Part shown: positions 58-36,713 of the stretch, piece by piece | Position numbering within the stretch: the first letter of the stretch is position 1 | How the letters are laid out: every line of letters begins with the position of its first letter | Source: Enoplosus armatus | Lineage: Eukaryota; Chordata; Actinopteri; Centrarchiformes; Enoplosidae | Direction of reading: 5' to 3' | Length of the DNA stretch: 64,000 nt | Assembly: GCF_043641665.1 (NCBI RefSeq) | Contig: NC_092180.1 | Location: 14,501,891-14,565,890 of the forward strand | The notes under the pieces: model-generated | Databases searched by the model: none | What the model saw: only the letters and a program-made list of their open reading frames with translations | Told to the model about the DNA's origin: nothing | Program-made: the position numbers and the translations under genes

Positions 58-1701
58 GTAAGTTTGATTGACTGTAGTAGTGGTTGTTAATGAACTGTTT
101 TATGTTGTGATTGTTTGGCTGATTTTCCTGAGAAAAACAAGTGTTAAAACAAAGGCATGTGGTCAGTAGGAGTGAGTCAGCTTTCTTAGAAAAGCACAAT
201 TTCAGAGCCCTCTCCAGTGTTTGTTTACTATTGCTCCATCTTATGAAAGTTGATATAGCAGTTTTCACACAAGTTTATCGCAACAATGAGTATTGTATAA
301 CTAAAAGAACCCATTCTACAATAACAATTTATGTCTTATGCTTTTTAAAATAATGAAACTGAAAGTGTAGAGATTTGGGGGAGCTCAAAGATTTAGCCCT
401 AACCCGTGTATCTTTGGGTTTGAACTTTTCCAGATGAAGTGATTGCAGTTCATCTGTAATCTCTGAATAACAGTTTATTGAGTTGAACTCTTCAGCAAAA
501 CACCATCATTTGCATTCTGAATGCCATTTTTTTTTAGATTGGTTGTCAGGATTTTTTATAAGAAAGCATGGGATTTGAGGTTCCCTAATGAAACCGGGTT
601 CTCCTGAGCTTTTCAAATTTGATGAGTTTGAGTTCTTTTTGAAATTATCCAGCTGATAAAACATCACTTGAGACCTGTAATGTCACACAAACGCAATGCT
701 GTACGGTCAGTCAGAACAGTGGAGGCTGAAAGCCAAACACTGCTTACTCTGCATCACGTGTCAGTTCACTCCTAAAGATCAGATCCCAGTACACCCCATA
801 ATTATTTTCTGACTTGGCTTTTTGATTTGAGTGATTTCACAACACCCAAATGTAGGTGATGGCTAGATGTTTGTCTGGCTTTATGGCAAGCCTTACCAAG
901 CAATGTATGTGTGTTTATTATTTATTTATTTATTTTTTGCCTTGAAGATTTAACTATTTATCTTTGCAGGAGGAGGAACTGAAGATGGCCACTCAGCTCG
1001 CTGGTCCAGTCATGCCCATCAAAACTGTAAGTTTCAATTCCTTCCAAGATTCACTAGAACCCAATATATCCATATTGAAAAATATATTTATGGATTATAA
1101 TGAGATCACTGGAAATGTGATTGATTTTAGGTGGAAGATTAGTCTGAATTTTATCCTTAATCTCACAGCAGTTAACATTGAACTGGCTGTATTGTCATTT
1201 GCCATTCATGTTGCCAGTGATGACGATGTTCAGAAATAAGCACAATCTTGATGTTTTGCATCGCAGCAGTCAGATGATGACAAATCTCCGGAATCTCTGT
1301 ATATCTTTGATGAAACACTTGAACCCTTTCTCTGATGACTGCTTCTTAAAATCAAGCTGGCAAAATTGCTTGTCCTAAAATATTGATGCCATAAAATTGG
1401 ACTCCTATTTGCATATTAGTCAATGTTTAAAATGGCTGGATTTTGTCCTTTGGCAGAGTTATAATAATAATAATATATAGGTTATTAAGAAATGTTTAGA
1501 AAGTGTCACATACTATTGTCTCTTTTTTTTCCTACACTTCAGGTTCACAAGAAGGACAAGGCCCGGGTTATCTCTGAGGATGAGAAGAACTTCAAGGCTT
1601 TCGCCAGCCTGCGTATGGCCCGCGCCAACGCTCGTCTTTTCGGCATCCGTGCCAAGAGAGCCAAAGAGGCTGCCGAGCAGGACGTGGAGAAGAAGAAGTG
1701 A
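1..1701 (+). CDS. rpl13: rpl13, ribosomal protein eL13 (3' part; starts before the window)
   Basis: This is the 3' end of the gene for 60S ribosomal protein L13 (eL13), a structural protein of the large cytosolic ribosomal subunit. Three coding exons are visible: 1-57, 970-1026 and 1543-1701, all joined in phase 0. Together they encode the last 90 residues. The human protein is 211 residues, so about the first 120 lie upstream of the window. Diagnostic segments are [46 protein letters not shown] and the lysine-rich end DVEKKK. The C-terminus is basic, as expected of an rRNA-binding protein. The stop codon is at 1699-1701, followed by a short 3' UTR. The last intron hosts a C/D snoRNA, a common arrangement in ribosomal protein genes. 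Identity is near certain; no break is seen in the visible part. Confidence 0.97.
58..969 (+). other. rpl13 intron, with two short perfect hairpins
   Basis: This intron of about 0.9 kb lies between the first two visible rpl13 exons. It contains two adjacent short inverted repeats: CAAAGAT (386-392) with ATCTTTG (410-416), and CAGATGAA (431-438) with TTCATCTG (449-456). I found no convincing C/D snoRNA in it: C-box-like motifs occur, but none has a partnered D box and a terminal stem. Confidence 0.6.
970..1026 (+). CDS. rpl13: rpl13 penultimate coding exon
   Basis: The acceptor is tttgcag|GAG and the donor is ACT|gtaagt. The exon has exactly 19 codons, reading [19 protein letters not shown], and both borders are phase 0. 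Confidence 0.96.
1027..1542 (+). other. last rpl13 intron (snoRNA host)
   Basis: This intron of about 0.5 kb has donor gtaagt and acceptor cttcag. Apart from the snoRNA at 1266-1342 and a short (AAT)n run near 1462, nothing else is recognised. Confidence 0.85.
1266..1342 (+). ncRNA. snord68: C/D-box snoRNA, SNORD68-like, in the last rpl13 intron
   Basis: This is a 77-nt C/D-box snoRNA on the host-gene strand. A perfect 7-bp terminal stem pairs GCAGTCA (1266-1272) with TGACTGC (1336-1342). Inside it are C box ATGATGA (1274-1280), D' box CTGT (1297-1300), C'-like box TTGATGA (1307-1313) and D box CTGA (1332-1335). The 11 bases upstream of D', TCTCCGGAATC (1285-1295), are complementary to GATTCCGGAGA of 18S rRNA. 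The fifth base before D' (A1292) pairs with the second U of GAUUCC. As I recall, this is the human Um428 site, assigned to SNORD68, which also sits in an RPL13 intron. The guide before the D box (about CTTGAACCCTTTCT) should have a second target that I did not confirm. The structure is seen directly; the homology is inferred from position and guide. Confidence 0.9.
1543..1701 (+). CDS. rpl13: rpl13 last coding exon
   Basis: The acceptor is cacttcag|GTT after a pyrimidine-rich tract. The exon has 52 codons plus TGA and runs from VHKKDKARV to EQDVEKKK. It is GC-richer than its surroundings, as expected for a highly expressed ribosomal protein gene. Confidence 0.97.

Positions 1702-8534: not shown

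Positions 8535-36713
<28,179 letters not shown>

Follow-up and report, generated by a model that had tools for sequence, protein, structure and literature searches.

Two SNORD68 copies within a fish rpl13 gene share an 18S guide and differ from human SNORD68 in the D strand

The locus: rpl13 and its surroundings

The window analysed here, the whole 64-kb stretch of DNA (64,000 nucleotides), opens inside the ribosomal protein gene rpl13. On the forward strand it carries the 3′ part of exon 4 (1–57), exon 5 (970–1026), the 516-nt intron 5 (1027–1542), which follows CDS nucleotide 477, and the coding part of exon 6 including the stop codon (1543–1701). Assembled around both snoRNA copies described below from the window and further DNA of the same genome, the CDS reads through for 211 aa and is interrupted by introns after CDS nucleotides 104, 246, 420 and 477; judged by eye, the gene probably has an additional intron in its 5′UTR. 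In the PDB, the last 90 aa of the protein find their matches among vertebrate eL13 chains; together with the assembled CDS, this confirms rpl13 as the host gene that the earlier note had proposed; taken alone, the last exon scored 18.9 bits against Pfam Ribosomal_L13e, under the cut-off of 24.9. The codon junction of fish intron 5 is that of human RPL13 intron 5 (c.477+1, p.N159_V160ins18; PMC7988564).

Downstream of rpl13, copine-type exons lie at 8535–8825, 13185–13517, 23020–23280 and 35139–35537, all on the forward strand. In a Pfam scan of ten ORFs, C2 was found in 13185–13517 and Copine in both 23020–23280 and 35139–35537; the exon at 8535–8825 was recognised by eye. Copine exons beside rpl13 are as expected if the human gene order RPL13–CPNE7 has been kept. 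Between the copine exons, pieces of a Tc1/mariner-type transposase occupy two overlapping frames at 30556–31444 (forward strand), the first recognised by eye and the second containing Pfam HTH_Tnp_Tc3_2 and DDE_3. The transposase type and the size of the genome would suit a ray-finned fish, to which the gene probably belongs.

A SNORD68 box C/D snoRNA in intron 5

Intron 5 hosts a SNORD68 (snoMBII-202) box C/D snoRNA at 1265–1343 (forward strand), hereafter copy B. From the letters alone the earlier note had described an intronic, SNORD68-like C/D snoRNA and had named a covariance-model search beforehand as one of its tests. Searching the 64 kb on both strands with Rfam gave a match to RF00324, the family of SNORD68, at 1275–1353 with 64.5 bits and an E-value of 7.3e-12 (gathering score 40), the sole gathering-score Rfam match within the window. 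Published human snord68 primers agree with the RF00324 consensus. A weak overlapping match to snoR66 (RF00202; 21.4 bits, far under its gathering score of 43) was discarded: snoR66 has a generic C/D scaffold in common with copy B, and the guides differ.

The boxes C, D′, C′ and D follow one another in the order that had been described, two of them imperfect. Box C (AUGAUGA, 1274–1280) precedes the D′ guide UCUCCGGAAUC (1285–1295), box D′ (CUGU, 1297–1300), box C′ (UUGAUGA, 1307–1313), the 18-nt D strand AACACUUGAACCCUUUCU (1314–1331) and box D (CUGA, 1332–1335); box D′ is one base off CUGA, and box C′, aligned to the RF00324 consensus, is one base off RUGAUGA. The ends are closed by a terminal stem in which 1265–1272 pairs with 1336–1343. 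Its seven pairs between GCAGTCA (1266–1272) and TGACTGC (1336–1342) had been put forward as a perfect 7-bp stem; they stand, but the full stem is 8 bp long owing to the extra pair A1265–U1343.

Copy B is the sole site in the window where an exact C box is followed 50–125 nt later by a CUGA and the stem has 7 bp or more, a combination occurring on average 0.075 times, and at most once, in 40 Markov-shuffled windows. Three looser C/D scaffolds lie elsewhere in the window, and because relaxing the stem to at least 5 bp raises the shuffled mean to 0.425, the scaffold alone is weaker evidence. The 11-nt guide, allowing one mismatch, occurs once in the window and at least once in 29 of 100 shuffles and is thus unremarkable by itself. 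What carries the identification as SNORD68 is the covariance match, together with the host gene and the second copy. Scans of viral contigs with the snoRNA, the 18S string and the first 28S string gave 0 matches each.

An intragenic duplicate in intron 3

A genome search with RF00324 (579.7 Mb, 134 contigs) returned at least two matches: copy B itself and, with 62.4 bits, a hit at C1:14501583–14501661 that begins 308 bp ahead of the window; as 55 out of 120,371 first-look candidates went on to scoring, two copies are a lower bound. No third copy was found within 8 kb around rpl13, and 14 control genomes yielded 0 matches to RF00324. The second copy (copy A; L005 4673–4751, C1:14501573–14501651) is full-length and lies outside the window in rpl13 intron 3.

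Copies A and B form a 96-nt direct repeat of 89% identity without indels, and weaker similarity extends upstream, the mark of an intragenic duplication within rpl13. Duplication of snoRNAs inside their host gene has been seen before (PMC2653536). A C-box-like stretch at 1205–1265 was considered as a degenerate further snoRNA copy and rejected, its local alignment score of 22 being reached by 82 of 1,000 shuffles; this stretch belongs in part to the duplication's decayed flank. The copies are identical in stem, boxes and D′ guide and have diverged in the D′–C′ loop and the D strand: all differences (9 of 79 nt) fall between box D′ and box D, none of them in box C′. Stem, boxes and D′ guide, 49 nt in all, thus contain 0 differences (P 7e-5 for random placement, a post hoc value). 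Either purifying selection on the two copies or partial gene conversion is indicated, and the latter could in part account for the identity of stem and guide.

The 3′ splice site usually follows a vertebrate intronic C/D snoRNA by about 70–80 nt. Here the spacing is 199 nt for copy B and 122 nt for copy A, and these larger distances count against a functional reading. The longer distance of copy B, together with its less stable own fold (−12.6 kcal/mol compared with −16.0 kcal/mol for copy A), would suit a decaying duplicate in a gene that makes only the intron-3 RNA. We regard such decay as unlikely, since copy B has the same boxes, D′ guide and 8-bp stem as copy A and even the higher RF00324 score (64.5 versus 62.4 bits).

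The D′ guide and 18S U428

The D′ guide is the same in both copies. On 18S letters that come from a published U428 oligo plus eight further bases, and not from fish rRNA, it pairs with GAUUCCGGAGA over 11 contiguous bp, in agreement with the complementarity to 18S that had been claimed for TCTCCGGAATC at 1285–1295. The claim that the fifth base from D′ falls on a U was likewise correct: A1292 (D′+5) lies opposite the second U in 18S GAUUCC, which is the U that the human guide places at D′+5. The 18S letters after GAATCAGGGTTCGATTCC are presumably GGAGAGGG; GAATCAGGGTTCGATTCC itself is the complement of a chimeric U428 oligo and contains the guide's 18S site (PMC6124571). The human target named in the earlier note, 18S Um428, is borne out by the literature, as human SNORD68 guides U428 and its knock-down lowers U428 methylation (PMC6124571). 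Most likely, then, the fish D′ guide directs 2′-O-methylation at the U428 equivalent.

Two exact vertebrate target strings, 18S and 28S, had 0 matches in the 580-Mb assembly, so the fish rRNA targets are assumed, not read; rDNA is probably absent from the assembly or divergent there.

The D strand: pairing with 18S next to U428

Directly 5′ of the target GAUUCCGGAGA, 18S reads AGGGUUC. The D strand of copy B pairs there over 9 bp (AGGGUUCGA, adjoining U428) and copy A over 8 bp (GGGUUCGA), with one G–U each; the last two bases (GA) of the D-strand pairing overlap the D′ target. An “extra base pairing” between SNORD68 and 18S, some nucleotides of which are in common with the 28S pairing, has been reported (PMC6124571), and such pairing adjoining U428 would explain why GAACCC is conserved in the D strand. 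Judged by these pairings, the fish D strand most likely acts as a helper for U428. As the human D strand pairs with the same 9 bp of 18S, this helper reading is not special to fish.

The D strand and 28S A2388

Human SNORD68 has a second target, 28S A2388 (2401 in newer numbering; PMC8393311, PMC9941101, PMC5597630, PMC6451326, PMC6124571). Its knock-down lowers A2388 methylation (PMC6124571), which is partial in human cells (scores of 0.54–0.69 in HCT116). The A2388 letters were fixed by a published primer, the site spacing and the L002 sequence CGGAGAAGGGTTCCATGTGAACAGCAG, which place A2388 in GGAGAAGGGUUCC, a string that L002 contains exactly; the sites 2388, 2402, 2409 and 2411 read A, U, C and G on this eukaryote 28S. 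An initial candidate for the 28S target, CAGAAAAGG, was dropped because the A2388 primer and the site spacing point to GGAGAAGGGUUCC. Both L002, an IMG/VR contig, and L001, a bacterial MAG contig, carry eukaryotic rRNA (Rfam LSU_rRNA_eukarya), and the two records look contaminated or misclassified.

The D strand measures 18 nt in both fish copies, compared with 24 nt in the human string, which we joined from published primers and the Rfam consensus and whose last bases are consensus, not human read. On 28S the human D strand forms 12 bp with one G–U and has A2388 exactly at D+5 (−25.9 kcal/mol). Copy B forms 9 bp, again with one G–U, with A2391 at D+5 and C1330 opposite A2388 (−15.6 kcal/mol; like the human value, this counts a few pairs past an internal loop). 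In copy A the longest run is 7 bp (−11.5 kcal/mol), and D+5 faces G2392 or a mismatched A2391, with no paired adenosine there in the registers listed. A double guide would have A2388 opposite D+5, and on the 28S letters of L002, which are not those of fish, neither fish copy does so; D+5 misses A2388 because the D strand is shorter in both.

Two further readings of this register change concern the fish 28S and the activity of the guide. The A2388 region differs in L001 and thus varies among eukaryotes, so the fish 28S may be changed there. Alternatively, the D guide may be active but shifted by three bases, so that copy B would methylate the A2391 equivalent instead of A2388; its 9 bp (one G–U) with 28S GAAGGGUUC, which put A2391 opposite D+5, would permit this. 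We consider such a shift improbable, as the duplex is weaker than that of the human string (−15.6 versus −25.9 kcal/mol), copy A has a C facing A2391 in the same register, and A2391 (2404 in newer numbering) is absent from the human site list in its portion from 2401 to 2415. Overall, A2388 guidance by both rpl13 copies has probably been lost or has moved.

Proposed function and significance

The analysis thus shows the sequence itself, a covariance match, the box layout, a duplicate, pairing geometry on non-fish rRNA letters and a changed D-strand register. Given these observations, we are highly confident that a functional fish SNORD68 with a D′ guide to 18S U428 lies at 1265–1343, as one member of an intragenically duplicated pair (introns 3 and 5). 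That it is a chance C/D-like string in an intron is scarcely conceivable. C/D boxes are short, the window has three looser scaffolds, and shuffled windows contain on average 0.425 sites with exact C and D boxes closed by 5 bp or more of stem; but chance would have to produce an E-value of 7.3e-12 for RF00324 and, in addition to a conserved second copy elsewhere in rpl13, both the host and the guide that SNORD68 should have.

We infer that the RNA is expressed by being spliced out with rpl13 intron 5 and then released by debranching and trimming. It would be assembled with the box C/D proteins SNU13, NOP56, NOP58 and fibrillarin, whereupon the D′ guide would direct 2′-O-methylation at the 18S counterpart of human U428. 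Base pairing of the D strand with the AGGGUUC immediately 5′ of the 18S target would most likely support this, and the second job of the human RNA, 28S A2388, would probably have been dropped by both rpl13 copies. A broader evolutionary scenario, which we advance tentatively and rate at a little under an even chance, is that SNORD68, in the lineage leading to this fish, underwent duplication inside rpl13 and changed from a double guide into an 18S-only guide, the D strand being kept only as an 18S clamp adjoining U428, while 28S A2388 methylation disappeared, passed to another snoRNA or shifted by three bases.

The SNORD68 pair adds two RNA genes for annotation and provides a natural test of which parts of SNORD68 are selected, as the diverged copies keep the 18S guide and GAACCC but not the A2388 register. 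It would also bear on whether a 28S methylation that human cells carry only in part can be missing from a vertebrate.

Comparison with known SNORD68 RNAs

We found no literature on SNORD68 in any fish in a non-exhaustive search, and the pair may well already be catalogued for other fishes. In chicken, an RNA in RPL13 with the mammalian homologue HBII-202 has a 12-nt guide to 18S-U-389 and is given as one isoform in RPL13 intron 2 (PMC2653536), in contrast to the two SNORD68 copies (introns 3 and 5) in the single fish rpl13 gene. Chicken intron 2 may equal fish intron 3 if the 5′UTR intron is left uncounted; as the chicken numbering may omit this intron, we dropped the idea that the snoRNA had moved relative to intron 5. 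With SNORD68 (HBII-202/MBII-202, RF00324) the fish copies have in common the host RPL13, the box layout, the D′ guide to 18S U428 and the conserved UUGAACCC in the D strand. They differ from human SNORD68 in a D strand that is 6 nt shorter and out of the 28S A2388 register; apart from this changed second guide, the fish element is an ordinary SNORD68.
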